Shown here one piece after another: positions 1 to 60,475 of a stretch of DNA of 64,000 nucleotides (position 1 is its first letter; each line of letters opens with the position of its first letter). Below the pieces are notes generated by a model. It saw only the letters and a program-made list of their open reading frames with translations. It searched no databases and was not told the DNA's origin. Both the position numbers and the translations under genes were made by a program. This DNA is from an uncultured Clostridia bacterium (GTDB lineage Bacteria > Bacillota > Clostridia > Oscillospirales > Acutalibacteraceae): the NCBI GenBank assembly GCA_944384985.1, contig CALWVM010000002.1, positions 185,877-249,876 on the forward strand, read 5' to 3'.

Positions 1-2
1 TC

Positions 3-248
3 GATGCTGTTTCAAATTGTATCGCGCAATATGGGCACTTTGCGCTTTCCATGCTGGAGGATTCCTTTACAGCTGAGGAAAGAAGCGCGGTGGCAGCGAT
101 CCAAACCCTGATCCCGAATCTTGCCGATACACCCGAGGAATGCCGCGACTGCATCCGTGTTTTGGCGCAGGAAAAAGCGAAGGTCGGTCTCGAAGATCCG
201 GCGTCGCTTTCGGACGATGATTTCTTAAAGCTGTTCCGGTCGAACTGA
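3..248 (+). CDS. dnaG: DNA primase, C-terminal fragment (probable)
   Basis: Open reading frame entering from the left edge and ending in TGA at 246-248; the frame is open from base 3, so the gene starts outside the window. About 81 residues are visible, acidic and helical, ending KLFRSN. This small helical tail is what the DnaB-helicase-binding end of DnaG looks like, and dnaG directly before rpoD is the classical macromolecular synthesis operon of Firmicutes. No catalytic primase motif is inside the window, so the name rests on position and general character. It ends 34 bp before the first sigma gene and is presumably co-transcribed with it. Confidence 0.55.
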   Translation, partial: DAVSNCIAQYGHFALSMLEDSFTAEERSAVAAIQTLIPNLADTPEECRDCIRVLAQEKAKVGLEDPASLSDDDFLKLFRSN

Positions 249-282
249 CTTCGGAGCTTGTATTTTTGTGTGAGGAGAGACT

Positions 283-1389
283 ATGGAGAACACAAACAAA
301 AAGTCGACTGTCACCGCTCTTTTGGAAAAAGGAAAAGCGGCGGGCAAACTGACGACGCAGGAGATCGATGCTGCAATTCTCGAAATGGATTTCGACATGG
401 AAGAGCTGGACAAGCTCTATGAAACCATTGAGGCGCAGAATATCGAGATCATCGACGATATGAACGAGTCGGCGCTTGAAGATCTGAATTTTGACAGCGA
501 GATCCCCAAAGGCCAGGAAACAGCGGAAGCGGCAGCGGAAAGCCGTACAGCCGCCATGGACGATCCCGTGAAGGTATACCTCAAAGAGATCGGGCGCGTG
601 CCGCTGTTAACTCCGGAAGAAGAGATTGAGCTTGCCATTCGCATCAGCCAGAACGACCAGCAGGCCAAACAGCGCCTTGCGGAAGCGAACCTGCGGCTTG
701 TCGTAAGCATTGCCAAGCGGTATGTCGGTCGCGGAATGCAGTTTTTGGATCTGATCCAAGAGGGGAATTTAGGCCTTATTAAAGCGGTGGACAAATTCGA
801 CTATACAAAGGGCTTCAAATTCTCGACCTATGCGACCTGGTGGATCCGGCAGGCGATCACCCGCGCGATCGCCGATCAGGCACGCACCATCCGCATCCCG
901 GTGCACATGGTGGAGACCATCAACAAGGTCAAAAAGACAAACACGCAGCTTCTGCACAAAAACGGGCGCGACCCGACGGCAGAAGAGATTGCTGCAGAGC
1001 TGAATATGCCGGTAGAAAAGGTGCGCGAAATCTTACGTGTTTCACAGGAACCGGTATCCCTGCAAACGCCGATCGGTGAGGAAGAGGACAGCCACCTCGG
1101 CGACTTCATCCCGGACGAAGACGCGCTCGCCCCGGAAGATGCCGCATCGCGGATGCTGTTGAAAGAGCAGCTTTCCGAAGTTCTCAAAACCCTGACCCAC
1201 CGCGAAGCAAAAGTGCTTTCCCTGCGGTTCGGGCTTGAAGACGGGCATCCGCGCACGCTTGAAGAAGTCGGCAGTGAATTCGGCGTCACGCGCGAACGAA
1301 TCCGCCAAATCGAAGCCAAGGCGCTTCGCAAACTGCGCCATCCGACGCGCAGTAAGAAGCTGAAAGATTATGTGGATAACTTTACATAA
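283..1389 (+). CDS. rpoD: Primary sigma-70 factor RpoD/SigA, copy 1
   Basis: RNA polymerase primary sigma factor, 368 residues. Order: a short acidic region 1.1 (about 8-60), region 1.2 ([16 protein letters not shown], near 93), region 2 with core-binding and -10 recognition ([20 protein letters not shown], then [15 protein letters not shown]), region 3 ([13 protein letters not shown]), and region 4 with the -35 helix-turn-helix ([18 protein letters not shown]). AGGAG lies 7 bases before the ATG. A second, almost identical sigma gene follows after 16 bp, so the two are surely co-transcribed. Compared with copy 2 it has a different first dozen residues, Glu in place of Ala in the region 4 HTH (VGSEFG), and a three-residue longer C-terminus. 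Confidence 0.97.
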
Positions 1390-2500
1390 GATGTAAGGAG
1401 TTTATATGGATAAGAACGATAAAAAATCGTCCCTGCACACGCTGCTGGAAAAGGGGAAAGCGGCGAGCAAGCTGACGACACAGGAGATCGATGCCGCAAT
1501 TCTGGAAATGGATCTCGACATGGAAGAGCTGGACAAGCTCTATGAAACCATTGAGGCGCAGAATATCGAGATCATCGACGATATGAACGAATCGGCGCTC
1601 GAGGACCTGAATTTTGACAGCGAAATGCCTAAAGGTCAGGAAGCCGCTGCGGCCACAACGGAAAGCCGTACAGCCGCCATGGATGATCCTGTGAAGGTGT
1701 ACCTCAAAGAGATCGGGCGCGTGCCGCTGTTAACCCCGGAAGAAGAGATTGAGCTTGCCATTCGCATCAGCCAAAATGACCAGCAGGCCAAACAGCGCCT
1801 TGTGGAAGCGAACCTGCGGCTTGTCGTAAGCATTGCCAAGCGGTATGTCGGCCGCGGAATGCAGTTTTTGGATCTGATCCAAGAGGGGAATTTAGGCCTT
1901 ATTAAAGCGGTGGACAAATTCGACTATACAAAGGGCTTCAAATTCTCGACCTATGCGACCTGGTGGATCCGGCAGGCGATCACCCGCGCGATCGCCGATC
2001 AGGCACGCACCATCCGCATCCCGGTGCACATGGTGGAGACCATCAACAAGGTCAAAAAGACAAACACGCAGCTTCTGCACAAAAACGGTCGCGACCCGAC
2101 GGCAGAAGAGATTGCTGCAGAGCTGAATATGCCGGTAGAAAAGGTGCGCGAAATCTTACGCGTTTCACAGGAACCGGTATCCCTTCAAACGCCGATCGGC
2201 GAGGAAGAGGACAGCCACCTCGGCGACTTTATCCCGGACGAAGACGCGCTCGCCCCTGCGGACGCAGCTTCTATGACGCTCTTAAAAGAGCAGCTTTCCG
2301 AAGTTCTTAAGACGTTAACGCGCCGCGAGGCAAAAGTGCTTTCCCTGCGGTTCGGGCTTGAAGACGGGCATCCGCGCACGCTTGAAGAAGTCGGCAGTGC
2401 GTTCGGCGTTACACGCGAACGAATCCGCCAAATCGAAGCCAAGGCGCTTCGCAAGCTGCGCCATCCGAGCAGAAGCAAAAAATTAAAGGATTATCTGGAT
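283..2500 (+). repeat. Tandem gene duplication (rpoD x 2)
   Basis: Bases 283-1389 and 1406-2503 form a direct duplication about 1.1 kb long, offset by 1123 bp. The stretch coding for sigma regions 1.2 to 3 is nearly base-for-base identical, including synonymous positions, while the 5' ends and the segment around 1130-1200 / 2255-2325 have diverged. Silent-site identity in the middle with divergent flanks suggests either a recent duplication or continuing gene conversion. Confidence 0.9.
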
Positions 2501-2503
2501 TAA
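1406..2503 (+). CDS. rpoD: Primary sigma-70 factor RpoD/SigA, copy 2
   Basis: Second RpoD, 365 residues, tandem to copy 1 with its own AAGGAG 7 bases before the ATG. By direct comparison there are 23 substitutions over 365 aligned residues: nine in the first 21, five around 73-84, and a few in region 4 (E/A, R/M, M/T, H/R, E/A, T/S, V/L). Regions 2 and 3 are identical except for one Ala/Val, so -10 recognition should match. The regions 4.1/4.2 differences could alter activator contacts or -35 tolerance. The reading frame is intact and ends at the transcription terminator at 2513, so this is a working gene rather than a decaying copy. Confidence 0.96.
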
Positions 2504-2512
2504 ATCCAGTTT

Positions 2513-2540
2513 GGACATCCCGCGCCGGGGTGTCCTTTTT
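2513..2540 (+). terminator. Rho-independent terminator after the sigma genes
   Basis: Stem GGACA-CCC/GGG-TGTCC around a short CG-rich loop followed by five T. It begins 9 bp after the stop of the second rpoD and closes the dnaG-rpoD-rpoD transcript. Confidence 0.9.
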
Positions 2541-2552
2541 CGTAAAATTGTC

Positions 2553-2581
2553 TTGTGTGCTGTGCATGAATATGCTACAAT
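2553..2581 (+). promoter_or_regulatory. Sigma-A promoter of the dCMP deaminase gene
   Basis: TTGTGT (2553-2558), 17-bp spacer, TACAAT (2576-2581), directly behind the rpoD terminator and 28 bp before the ATG. Confidence 0.6.
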
Positions 2582-2609
2582 AAACAAAAGGATGTCGGGA
2601 GTGATACGA

Positions 2610-3098
2610 ATGGAAAGACGGGATAAAATCAACTATTATCTGGACCTTGCTGAAGTGGTTTCCCAGCGAAGCACCTGCCTGCGCCGCCATTTCGGCGCGG
2701 TAATCGTCCAGAACGATGAAGTGATTTCAACCGGGTACAACGGTGCACCGCGCGGCAGAAAGAACTGCACCGATCTAAACTATTGCGTGCGGCAGGCTCT
2801 CCATGTCCCACGCGGCGAGCGCTATGAGCTTTGCCGCAGTGTGCATGCTGAAGCAAATGCTATCATCAGCGCCTCGCGTAAGGAGATGATCGGCAGTACA
2901 CTGTATCTCGTGGGCGTCGAGTGTGACACAGGAGATTATGTAGAAAGCGCGAGCAGCTGCCCCATGTGCAAACGGCAGGTCATCAACGCCGGCATTATGC
3001 ATGTGATTATTCGAGATACCAAGGATGATTACCGGATCATCAACGTCCAAAAGTGGATCGAAGATGACGAGTCGCTGGACGGTGCAAAAGGCTATTAA
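2610..3098 (+). CDS. comEB: dCMP deaminase family protein (ComEB-like)
   Basis: Zinc-dependent deoxycytidylate deaminase, 162 residues, converting dCMP to dUMP for thymidylate supply. The zinc site is visible: the HAE motif in CRSVHAEANAII (near residue 72) and the distal CPMC cysteine pair (near 113). The substrate loop TGYNGAPRGRKNC (near 37) is typical of the family. I chose ATG 2610 because GGGAG lies 8 bases upstream; the frame runs open further upstream but those codons overlap the promoter. It has its own promoter and is followed at 31 bp by the secreted cohesin-like gene, which may read through. It sits outside any competence cluster, so a plain nucleotide-metabolism role is most likely. 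Confidence 0.92.
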   Translation: MERRDKINYYLDLAEVVSQRSTCLRRHFGAVIVQNDEVISTGYNGAPRGRKNCTDLNYCVRQALHVPRGERYELCRSVHAEANAIISASRKEMIGSTLYLVGVECDTGDYVESASSCPMCKRQVINAGIMHVIIRDTKDDYRIINVQKWIEDDESLDGAKGY

Positions 3099-3129
3099 CG
3101 GATTTCTGTCTTCCAAGGAGATTTCAAAC

Positions 3130-4029
3130 ATGACACGCTTTCGTAAACGCTTTGCCGGCATTGCGGCGTTTTTGCTTCTGTTTTCGCTTCTGTGCTGCGG
3201 CTGTTTTTTGTCAGCCGGCGCTGCAGATAACGGTTTTTCTCTTTCTGTAGGCTCTATTGAGGACGGCGGTATGATTCGCCTGCGCGTATATGCAGAAGGC
3301 GGGCGGCATCTCGGTGGATTTTCACTTTTGCTGCATTATGATGACACGTTTCTGCGGTATGAAAGCAGTACAGTTTCCGACTGCGGCGGTGTCGCTTATG
3401 TTGCCCCGACAGAGAACGGCAGCATTGCATTGACCTTTGCAACCATACAGGAGGATATTCAAACCAACGGAGAGCCGTTTTGTGAGCTTATGTTTCAAAT
3501 TGCAGAAGGCGCTTTTGGAACGGCCGAGCTTTCTTTGGAAGTTTGTGAAGCCATCGATACAAACGACAACCCGATCGGCGGGCTTACGGCAGATCCTGTG
3601 TATATTACTGTTTCGCAAACTGCTCTGACTCTGGAAAATGCGCCAACCCAAAAGTACTATTTTTGCGGTGATGCATTAAATACGGATGGCTTGCGTGTGA
3701 CAGCCACATATCCGGGCGGTGCGCAGGAGGTGCTGTCAGAATATGCACTTAGCGGCTTTCAGTCTGATGTGCCGGGCGTTGCTACCGTTACTGTGCGCAG
3801 CGGGAAAAATCGTGTTTCCTTCCAGGTCCTTATCGTTCTAAAAGGGGATGTGGACGCGGATGAGGATGCAGACCGGGATGATTATATGTTGATTGCCCGG
3901 CAGTCAGCCGAACGTGCATCGCTTTCGGAAGAAGCGCAGTTTCGAATGGATCTCAACGGAGATGGCGCTGTTGACGGATTTGACACGATGTATGAAGATC
4001 TCCTTTTGGATGGCCGTATTGCAGAATAG
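3130..4029 (+). CDS. Secreted cohesin-like / Ig-like / dockerin protein
   Basis: Exported protein of 299 residues. An N-terminal signal peptide has a basic start, a Leu/Phe-rich core and a Cys-containing end around residues 25-33. Residues about 36-160 resemble the cohesin/carbohydrate-binding beta fold (AEGGRHLGGFSLLLHYD, then a long beta-strand pattern). About 165-238 look like a Big_3-type bacterial Ig domain (TATYPGG, VTVRSG). The last about 60 residues are a dockerin type I repeat pair: GDVDADEDADRDDY and DLNGDGAVDGFD, each a calcium-loop motif. Start ATG 3130 has AAGGAG 9 bases upstream. A cohesin-like module joined to a dockerin is the layout of a cellulosome adaptor scaffoldin, but no glycosidase or sortase is nearby, so the partner is unknown. 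The cohesin call is by pattern, the dockerin call is stronger. Confidence 0.75.
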   Translation: MTRFRKRFAGIAAFLLLFSLLCCGCFLSAGAADNGFSLSVGSIEDGGMIRLRVYAEGGRHLGGFSLLLHYDDTFLRYESSTVSDCGGVAYVAPTENGSIALTFATIQEDIQTNGEPFCELMFQIAEGAFGTAELSLEVCEAIDTNDNPIGGLTADPVYITVSQTALTLENAPTQKYYFCGDALNTDGLRVTATYPGGAQEVLSEYALSGFQSDVPGVATVTVRSGKNRVSFQVLIVLKGDVDADEDADRDDYMLIARQSAERASLSEEAQFRMDLNGDGAVDGFDTMYEDLLLDGRIAE

Positions 4030-58400: not shown

Positions 58401-59168
58401 TTATTTCGATGCGGCGGCAACAATAGCAGCAAAATCGGGTGCTTTCAGTGAAGCGCCGCCGATCAGCCCGCCGTCTACGTTTTCTTTTGCAAGCAGTTCC
58501 TCAGCGTTGCCCGCGTTCATCGAGCCGCCGTACTGCACCGTCAAAGCCTGTGCGGCTTCCTCGCCGTAGACTTCCGCCACAGCAGCACGGACAAAGCCGT
58601 TTCCTTCATCCGCCTGATCTGCCGTTGCGGTAACGCCCGTACCGATCGCCCATACCGGCTCATATGCAATGATAACATTTTTAAGCTGTTCTTTTGTCAC
58701 ATTGGTAAGCGCCATTTTCGTCTGGAATTTGAGCAGCGTCTCCGTATAGCCGAGTTCGCGCTGTTCCAGCGTCTCGCCGACACAGACAATGGCTTTCAGT
58801 CCGGCATTCAGCGCCGCAAGCGTGCGCAGGTTGACGGTCTGATCTGTCTCGCCGAAATAGGTTCTTCTTTCGCTGTGACCGATCACAACATATTCTACGC
58901 CGGCTTCTGTGAGCATTTCTGCAGAAATCTCACCCGTATATGCACCGGACGCCTTAAAGTGGACATTTTCCGCGCCAATCTTGATATTCGAGCCTTTGGC
59001 GGCTTCCACAGCGGCGGGCACATCGATAAACGGCACGCACAGGACCACATCGCAGCCCGCGTCCTTCACAAGCGGTTTCATTTCTTCGATCAGCGCCTTC
59101 GCCTCGGAAGGGGTCTTGTTCATTTTCCAGTTGCCGGCGATGACCGCCGAACGTTTTGCTTTATTCAT
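58401..59168 (-). CDS. tpiA: Triosephosphate isomerase
   Basis: 255 residues. AGNWKMNKT at residue 11, catalytic His in VIGHSERRTYFGE near 95 and Glu in IIAYEPVWAIGTG near 167, phosphate loop QYGGSMNAGN near 212. AAGGAG precedes the ATG. Between pgk and gpmI, 63 and 24 bp from them. Confidence 0.97.
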   Translation of the reverse strand: MNKAKRSAVIAGNWKMNKTPSEAKALIEEMKPLVKDAGCDVVLCVPFIDVPAAVEAAKGSNIKIGAENVHFKASGAYTGEISAEMLTEAGVEYVVIGHSERRTYFGETDQTVNLRTLAALNAGLKAIVCVGETLEQRELGYTETLLKFQTKMALTNVTKEQLKNVIIAYEPVWAIGTGVTATADQADEGNGFVRAAVAEVYGEEAAQALTVQYGGSMNAGNAEELLAKENVDGGLIGGASLKAPDFAAIVAAASK

Positions 59169-59231
59169 GTTACATACTCCTTATCTGAAATGGAGATACA
59201 GGTGAGCGCAAGCACCCACCTGTATTTTTGT

Positions 59232-60428
59232 TTAGTCTTTATCGTCCAGCGCAGCGATGCCGGGCAGTTCTTTGCCCTCCAAGAATTCCAGAGAAGCGCC
59301 GCCGCCCGTAGAAATGTGCGACATCTTATCGGCAAAGCCGAGCTTCTCGATCGCAGCAGCGGAATCGCCGCCGCCGATGATGGAAATCGCGCCGCTTTCT
59401 GCAATAGCGGTCGCCACTGCAATGGTCCCCGCGGCAAAGTTGTTCCACTCAGAAACGCCCATCGGCCCGTTCCAGATGACCGTGCCTGCCCCCTGAATGG
59501 CATCTGCAAACAGTTTCTGCGTTTTGGGACCGATATCAAGACCCATCCAGCCGTCCGGGATCTCGTCGGAATTTACAACCATCGCTTCCGTGTCGGGCTT
59601 ATATTCCTTACCGACCTTGTTGTCCACAGGGATCAGGAAATTTATACCCTTGTCTTTTGCCTTTTGCATCATTTCGGCTGCAAGTTCAATTTTATCCTCT
59701 TCCAGCAGCGAATTGCCGACGTTGTGACCGAGAGCCTTCATAAAGGTATACGCCATGCCGCCGCCGATAATCAGCGTGTCGCATTTGTCAATCAGATTGG
59801 TGATAACGCCGATTTTATCAGACACCTTCGCGCCGCCGAGGATTGCAACCAGCGGCCGCTTCGGATTTTCCAGTGCGCCGCCGATGAACTGGATTTCTTT
59901 CTGGATCAGATAACCGCACGCGGACGGCAGATATTCCGCGACGCCCGCCGTCGAGGAGTGGGCTCTGTGCGCAGAACCAAACGCATCGTTGACATAGAGG
60001 TCCGCAAGCGCTGCAAACTTCTTGGAAAGCTCGGGATCGTTTTTCGTTTCGCCGGGTTCAAAGCGAACGTTTTCAAGAAGCATCACTTCGCCGTCTTTGA
60101 GCGACGCCGCAAGCGACTGTGCACTTTCGCCAACCACGTCTTTGGCAAGCTTTACGGGCTGACCCAAAAGCTCAGACAGACGCTCAGCAACCGGCTTCAT
60201 GGAAAATTCGGGATTATACTCGCCTTTCGGTCTTCCGAGATGCGAGCAAAGAATGACTTTGGCGCCATGTTTGATCAAGTACTGAATGGTCGGCAGAGAA
60301 GCAACAATTCGCTTGTCGCTGGTAATCACACCGTTTTCCATTTTGACGTTGAAGTCGCAGCGTACAAGGACCCGTTTGCCTTTTACGTCGAGATCTTCAA
60401 TCGTTTTCTTGTTCAATACACTACTCAT
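59232..60428 (-). CDS. pgk: Phosphoglycerate kinase
   Basis: 398 residues. [16 protein letters not shown] near 17, [13 protein letters not shown] near 56, [18 protein letters not shown] near 154, and C-terminal nucleotide block [18 protein letters not shown] 60428 is chosen since AAAGGATG sits eight bases before it, while ATG 60437 abuts that site. Leads the pgk-tpiA-gpmI operon; gap and enolase are not present here. Confidence 0.97.
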
Positions 60429-60475
60429 ATTTTTCATCCTTTCCGATTTATAGCGGGCTTTCCGCAACCTTGATT

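Follow-up and report, generated by a model that had tools for sequence, protein, structure and literature searches.

A tandem pair of rpoD genes with a homogenised core and paralogue-specific ends in an uncultured Clostridia bacterium

Why would a bacterium carry two complete genes for its primary sigma factor side by side, and what keeps them alike or different? We addressed this question on a 64,000-nucleotide stretch of DNA from an uncultured Clostridia bacterium (the window), in which copy A denotes the first rpoD gene and copy B the second. G000 is the window's own genome (2.12 Mb in 26 contigs, 97.67% complete), while G018 and G019 are two further species of the same genus. The original prediction described two intact, full-length RpoD copies separated by 16 nt and both preceded by a good ribosome site, and both the coordinates and the Shine-Dalgarno sequences agree with it. 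The gene order is dnaG, rpoD A, rpoD B and a terminator-like hairpin, with 34 nt from the end of the dnaG open reading frame (ORF) to the start of copy A. The features of the locus are as follows.

3..248, + strand: 3' end of dnaG (DNA primase), an open frame; the whole gene lies in the contig just beyond the window
272..277, + strand: Shine-Dalgarno sequence of copy A, GAGGAG (sequence)
283..1389, + strand: rpoD copy A, 368 aa, with the derived C terminus VDNFT (ORF, domain and family matches, residue survey)
283..345, + strand: paralogue-specific N terminus of copy A, codons 1-21, start of region 1.1 (A/B and three-species alignment)
730..965, + strand: 236-nt A/B-identical stretch, conversion-tract core, copy A side (alignment, shuffles)
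1135..1389, + strand: region 3 end and region 4 of copy A, paralogue-specific at E285, R290, M291, H306, E332, T355, V364 and the NFT tail (alignment, ends tree, residue survey)
1381..1389, + strand: TTTACATAA, the final codons of copy A (sequence)
1395..1400, + strand: Shine-Dalgarno sequence of copy B, AAGGAG (sequence)
1406..2503, + strand: rpoD copy B, 365 aa (ORF, domain and family matches, trees)
1406..1468, + strand: paralogue-specific N terminus of copy B, codons 1-21 (A/B and three-species alignment)
1853..2088, + strand: 236-nt A/B-identical stretch, conversion-tract core, copy B side (alignment, shuffles)
2258..2500, + strand: region 3 end and region 4 of copy B, tail absent, paralogue-specific at A285, M290, T291, R306, A332, S355 and L364 (alignment, residue survey)
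2513..2540, + strand: intrinsic-terminator-like hairpin and T run, stem 2513-2535 (hairpin scan)
2610..3098, + strand: dCMP/cytidine deaminase gene, the downstream neighbour (PF00383)

The 81-aa piece of dnaG inside the window gave no family match of its own in the profile search, whereas the full 588-aa ORF matches TIGR01391 at 428.9 bits (cut-off 283.6). The hairpin at 2513-2535 has 10 pairs, 7 of them G-C, and is the longest stem among the 7 matches found in positions 1-3300 by a scan that is weak by itself (7 found versus 4.7 expected in shuffles). No promoter-like match was found between the copies, in a scan that is likewise weak since it found none before copy A either. Copies A and B may be co-transcribed with dnaG as far as the terminator-like hairpin. 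Judged by ORF order, an ORF with the start of the deaminase (MERRDKINYY) also lies 3' of rpoD in G019 and in the relatives G024, G003 and G025. Further 3' of the deaminase gene, positions 3130-4029 of the window encode a secreted-looking protein with a Big_3 Ig-like domain, and ORFs that start like it are found downstream of rpoD in G018, G019, G025 and G059. Elsewhere, the window holds a tyrosine recombinase of the phage integrase family PF00589 (37015-38043, minus strand) and a 532-aa ORF without a Pfam match at E 1e-5 (58875-60473).

Both copies are group 1 (primary) sigma-70 factors of the RpoD/SigA type by their regions, their equivalog matches and the dnaG-rpoD position. Regions 1.1, 1.2, 2, 3 and 4 are present in each, with five Pfam domains over the cut-off. 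The two proteins score 577.7 and 576.7 bits against the RpoD equivalog NF006666 (cut-off 572), 400.9 and 402 bits against TIGR02393 (cut-off 354), and 42 and 38.6 bits against PF03979, the region 1.1 domain (cut-off 22.5). Group 2 sigma factors are defined as being without region 1.1; as both copies keep it, an RpoS-like sigma was rejected. Loss of region 1.1 is stated for RpoS in the cited part of PMC7527412. In the G000 genome, A and B are the sole two RpoD-protein matches at E 1e-60, and a Sigma70_r3 search retrieved A, B and two sporulation-type sigmas, namely a SigG (above the NF006071 cut-off, below that of TIGR02850) and a SigF-like protein (below the SigF cut-off).

The two proteins are identical at 342 of 365 aligned residues (94%); our recount of the 23 differences returned the number predicted. 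At the nucleotide level 90 of 1095 aligned positions differ, and copy A carries an extra three-residue C-terminal tail, NFT. The clustering that had been claimed for the amino-acid changes holds for 9 of them in residues 2-21 and 7 in residues 285-364, but not for the 7 found elsewhere (F37L, I74M, T80A, E82A, A84T, A85T and A133V). A133V is the single difference in region 2, and R337, E338, R341 and Q342, which face the -35 element by alignment and which we take to contact it, are identical in A and B. E. coli numbering is obtained as n+247 (residues 371-612 of 4jk1 aligned to 124-365), which makes residues 306, 332 and 355 equivalent to 553, 579 and 602. Synonymous divergence along the gene, a comparison that the original prediction had called for, turned out to be a mosaic: dS between A and B falls from about 1.28 in codons 1-30 to 0 in codons 151-210, and reaches 0.69, 0.36 and 0.77 in the 30-codon blocks starting at codons 271, 301 and 331.

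The tandem pair was found in 3 of the 39 genus genomes searched (G000, G018 and G019), so that its absence from every close relative, the outcome said to count against it, was not observed. At E 1e-60, 37 of the 39 genomes have an rpoD match, 3 of them with two copies and 34 with one, including the truncated gene of G032; no match was found at this threshold in G012 and G060. G018 and G019 share with G000 the 16-nt gap, the NFT tail and dnaG 34 nt upstream, with rpoB identities of 91.3% (G000/G018) and 95.1% (G018/G019). Species trees join the three two-copy species (dnaG, 100/100; rpoB+gyrA, 94/97, with partial gyrA from G013 and G025 and partial rpoB from G013, a genome with a long branch), and both place the single-copy G025 and G059 as sisters of the trio. 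Because the trees unite the two-copy species, a single gain in the trio is the simplest history. On contig C83 of G025 (L190), gyrA appears as two side-by-side matches in different open frames, either a frame break or a sequencing error. As the junction, with its 16-nt gap and NFT tail, is common to all three species, the duplication predates their split, and a recent duplication was rejected; the dS of about 1 between A and B at the N-terminal end, computable in two of the species, agrees with this. Thus, the "recent event" of the original prediction applies to the last conversions only.

How, then, are the copies so similar? Trees of the gene middle and of the ends were built with 19 rows, comprising the six copies and 13 of the 34 one-match genomes. 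For codons 30-280, G000 A groups with G000 B, and the copies of G018 and G019 fall into one group. A clade of A copies was rejected by 199 log units (p-AU 5e-8) and a clade of B copies by 201 log units (p-AU 3e-67), with the identical G018 rows left free in both tests. The longest A/B-identical run is 794 nt in G018, 236 nt in G000 and 127 nt in G019. Across 535 polymorphic columns, the longest run of A/B agreement reached 84 (G000), 370 (G018) and 59 (G019) columns, compared to shuffle maxima of 70, 101 and 55, and none of 20,000 shuffles in any of the three genomes reached the observed run. Among 36 control pairs between single-copy genomes, none reached p 0.001 and 4 reached 0.05. Of five between-genome pairs tested one by one, including two from the 36, G000A/G024 gave 21/5000 and the other four looked random. 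The grouping of the middle by genome, together with agreement runs beyond those of shuffles, strongly supports gene conversion that homogenises the middle of A and B within each genome, in line with the original prediction. With paralogues closer than orthologues and a duplication older than the species split, this part of the gene shows concerted evolution.

The homogenisation is not uniform as in genes of the tuf kind. There are 15 columns with one state in every A copy and another in every B copy; 13 of these fixed columns change an amino acid and 2 are silent. The 13 fall in codons 4, 5, 10, 11, 285, 290, 291, 306, 332 and 355, and thus within codons 1-20 and 282-365. By comparison, 82 columns separate the species in both copies, and only 11 of them are amino-acid-changing (13/15 versus 11/82; Fisher p 4e-8). 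Pure dosage, one of the purposes originally suggested for the pair, fails to explain amino-acid differences that are kept apart with hardly any silent ones. In codons 282-365, the paralogue pattern is found in 8 coding and 2 silent columns, the species pattern in 0 coding and 13 silent columns (p 9e-5), and the crossed pattern in 1 coding and 3 silent columns. Silent columns follow the species pattern more often than the crossed one (13 versus 3, p 0.02). This suggests that conversion also ran through region 4 after the G000 line had split off, which would need short mosaic tracts.

Substitution rates in codons 282-365 point in the same direction. Within a genome, dS between A and B is 0.64-0.84, compared to 1.04-2.14 for G000-G018/G019 orthologues (one of the four comparisons was not computable), whereas dN is 0.049-0.052 between A and B and 0.005-0.011 between the same orthologues. 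Thus, amino-acid divergence of the paralogues in region 4 is about 5-10 times the orthologue level while their silent divergence is lower, and the low orthologue dN indicates that the A and the B version are both conserved. This crossing of dS and dN is our main reason to believe that selection keeps the copies different; the sample of three species, two of them close, amounts to about two independent lineages. Two housekeeping sigmas with different contacts, as had been proposed, thereby gain indirect support from paralogue-specific residues conserved in three species. Positions 290, 291 and 306 vary among relatives, so some of the A/B differences may be mild.

An explanation without selection is that conversion tracts seldom extend to the homology ends, which would leave two equivalent sigmas and a pair that serves dosage. 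The ends are indeed where conversion is least expected, and they may diverge by geometry alone; the protein cores are near identical, and region 4 of G018 and G019 is almost without conversion. No conversion is visible there since the split of these two species, as their orthologue dS in region 4 (0.12 for A and 0.40 for B) lies below the A/B dS, and only one species-pattern column (codon 346) follows codon 282 in them. An edge effect cannot, however, set silent apart from coding changes, and between G000 and G018/G019 the silent sites of region 4 are mostly species-specific while its amino-acid sites are paralogue-specific, as counted above. It also sits badly with the conservation of both versions, and we consider this neutral explanation unlikely. 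From codons 282-365 alone, neither a G000A+G000B clade (p 0.258) nor the corresponding A+B clade of G018/G019 (p 0.232) was rejected. In the tree of the joined ends, the A copies form one clade (100/97), and the A+B grouping of G018/G019 was rejected (p 0.018), while that of G000A and G000B was not (p 0.077).

To see which copy departs from its relatives, we compared the differing residues with those of 32 single-copy genus genes and 79 RpoD loci of other organisms, the latter of unchecked copy number. The survey was compiled without G032 (truncated), L035 (same contig as G003) and G061, with G042 and G051 taken from the pair set; one G148 copy (G148_1) entered both it and a quick protein tree as a 225-aa form whose start was chosen too late. 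At positions 285, 290, 355 and 364 and in the tail, copy A is the departing one. R290 occurs in 0/32 genus singles and 0/79 other loci, V364 in 0/32 and 1/79, T355 in 0/32 and 4/79, and E285 in 2/32 and 1/79; M291 is present in 3/32 genus singles. None of the 32 singles has the NFT tail, and an extension of some kind is present in 2 of the 79 other loci. At residue 306 both copies are unusual (His 0/32 and 0/79; Arg 2/32 and 0/79). Residue 332 behaves otherwise: the Glu of copy A is common (19/32 and 68/79), while the Ala of copy B occurs in 2/32 and 0/79 and is shared with G025/G059. The predicted Glu-to-Ala difference in the -35 helix-turn-helix is therefore real, but its direction is reversed, the Ala of B being the unusual residue.

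The leader region also distinguishes the copies. Of 33 single-copy genus genes, 22 carry TACATA within the 45 nt upstream of rpoD, at a distance of about 20 nt (329/16,500 in shuffles; noted in the related loci L118, L121-L127 and L135). TACATA precedes all three B copies and none of the three A copies, and in the trio its letters come from the final codons of gene A (ACA TAA, closing the NFT tail). The motif may mark mRNA processing or act as a leader signal between dnaG and rpoD. Given the rarity of the A residues among relatives and TACATA before B only, copy B looks like the ancestral gene with the ancestral leader, and copy A like the copy that changed in region 4. It is plausible that V364 and the NFT tail derive from the former spacer between dnaG and rpoD: TTTACATAA is shared and the G024 and G003 spacers hold GTGGAT, whereas those of G025 and G059 lack it. 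A transfer of copy A out of one of the relatives sampled found no support, because R290, H306, T355, V364 and NFT occur in 0/32 genus singles; dnaG upstream of the pair in all three species also counts against transfer. Among 38 rows comprising 36 members of pairs and 2 family singles, E285 occurs in 6, T355 in 6 and R290 in 4, compared to 3, 4 and 0 among the remaining 111, made up of the 32 singles and the 79 loci of other organisms, which shared ancestry or fast evolution can explain.

The ends of copy B are closest to the single rpoD of the sister species. The ends tree joins the B copies with G025 and G059 (87/93, not starred), and the quick protein tree joins G000B, G018B, G025 and G059 with an SH-aLRT of 99. 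Such a grouping would mean an older duplication followed by loss of A in G025 and G059; an A+B clade was not rejected in the ends tree (p 0.177). In the tree of the gene middle, G025 and G059 fall beside G018 and G019 (90/90), in conflict with the species trees. The affinity of B to these single genes and its TACATA leader would also suit a division in which B is the true housekeeping sigma and A a condition-specific one, set apart mainly by regulation, for which the C. difficile sigA1/sigA2 pair with its growth-phase roles offers a precedent in the cited part of PMC7438776. However, B follows A by 16 nt with no promoter-like match between them (a weak argument, as none was found before A either), so that separate regulation would be hard to arrange, and such a division does not need homogenisation of the core; we judge it improbable. 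An assembly artefact or strain mixture, with two alleles of one gene set in tandem, is highly improbable and was rejected: near-identical repeats can be misplaced in draft assemblies, but the same junction, gap, tail and paralogue-specific residues appear in three genomes of different species, and G018 was assembled with both copies despite its 794-nt identical run.

The explanation that we favour, with some reserve, joins one tandem duplication, recurrent conversion of the core and selection for copy-specific ends into a system of two distinct housekeeping sigmas. A single tandem duplication would have created dnaG-rpoD(A)-rpoD(B) before the three species separated. Recurrent A/B conversion would keep the rest of region 1, region 2 and most of region 3 alike in each genome, while selection would stop it from erasing the copy-specific start of region 1.1 and would also preserve six to seven residues and the three-residue tail in the region 3 end and region 4. 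Both proteins would be made, and with region 2 differing by A133V only and R337, E338, R341 and Q342 unchanged, they are expected to share core RNA polymerase and to recognise identical -10 and -35 boxes. Differences would lie in the contacts made by the N terminus, the surface of region 4 or the C-terminal tail, with activators, anti-sigma factors and the beta flap as candidate partners. Thus, two housekeeping sigmas that read DNA with the same parts but have different N termini and region-4 surfaces are probably maintained by selection. A bolder version, possible but rather doubtful, is a two-headed system in which conversion keeps a shared engine for DNA reading and core binding and selection maintains alternative region-4 and N-terminal faces. 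The cell could then split all of its housekeeping transcription between two holoenzymes, distinguished only by the regulator or phage protein able to grip them. Dosage alone, an unexpressed copy, or growth-phase separation as in C. difficile are possible alternatives.

Two RpoDs in one genome are not peculiar to this genus. We sampled 297 genomes of the order, each at least 90% complete, and counted RpoD-type matches at E 1e-80: a single match was found in 265 and none in 7, while two were found in at least 25, a lower bound because no more than six candidates per genome were scored. Complete match positions were available for 23 of the 25, and sequences were extracted from G000, G018 and 18 others (all but G194, G264, G283, G308 and G315). 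Thirteen of the pairs are adjacent (<100 nt), 5 are spaced by 334-841 nt and 7 are on different contigs. Besides G000 and G018, the adjacent pairs are those of G042, G069, G083, G051, G088, G148 (counted as adjacent from match positions), G168, G176, G173, G270 and G306. The 16 other linked pairs (11 adjacent and 5 wider-spaced) consist of paralogues that are 53-67% identical, compared to 94% in the window. Wherever two genomes of a genus could be compared, orthologues were more alike than paralogues, and on the quick protein tree, which gave long-branch warnings, most of these pairs apparently fall in separate places. Second RpoD genes, at times right beside the first, thus seem to arise repeatedly in the order, whereas the homogenised pairs, among the pairs compared (the others judged by overall identities), are only those of G000, G018 and G019. 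Strongly diverged RpoD pairs, adjacent or nearly so, occur in several other families of the order (L119, L120 and L137-L150).

The statement of the original prediction that bacteria normally carry one RpoD is therefore too strong, the more so as pairs are published for C. difficile and Burkholderia. Duplication of a primary sigma gene has also given rise to secondary sigmas, such as mycobacterial SigA/SigB and the Streptomyces Hrd proteins, which are truncated or strongly diverged. RpoS likewise arose from RpoD by duplication, as described in the cited part of PMC7527412; unlike the members of these systems, both window copies keep all regions, including 1.1. C. difficile 630, like the window, has two group 1 sigmas in one Clostridia genome, sigA1 (CD1455) and sigA2 (CD1498), with exponential and stationary roles. 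According to the cited passages of PMC7438776, their identities to B. subtilis SigA are 65% and 56%, a clear divergence that the window pair, with its 342 shared residues, does not show; the locus numbers place the two genes apart, a SigH promoter is given for sigA2, and conversion is not mentioned in those passages. Two RpoD genes per genome are also typical of Burkholderia, where the essential copy is usually on the second replicon (PMC13316101), and are found as rpoD1 and rpoD2 with distant locus numbers in Cupriavidus (PMC7563307); in the cited parts of both sources the pairs are not described as tandem. The adjacent pairs elsewhere in the order resemble the window in having two genes <100 nt apart, but differ in their much lower identity. 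In the open-licence PMC papers searched, no tandem, conversion-homogenised RpoD pair was found, and the available main text of a survey of 26 genes (PMC6053082) has 0 occurrences of "rpoD" or "sigma factor". The closest likeness in process is to the tuf (EF-Tu) duplicates, which are copies of an important gene homogenised by conversion (cited parts of PMC6053082 and PMC5485169). For most of the 26 genes silent and coding sites are both highly similar, as reported in the same part of PMC6053082, whereas in the window pair conserved amino-acid differences survive conversion. Two RpoDs per genome are thus already known, and what is new is a homogenised core with paralogue-specific ends. The contrast between converted and unconverted sites is a natural experiment, residue by residue, on a primary sigma factor, in which residues 285, 290, 291, 306, 332 and 355 and the ends are kept different while the remainder is free to homogenise. 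The question of why some bacteria keep two housekeeping sigmas becomes directly testable on a pair of proteins with 23 differences over their aligned length.
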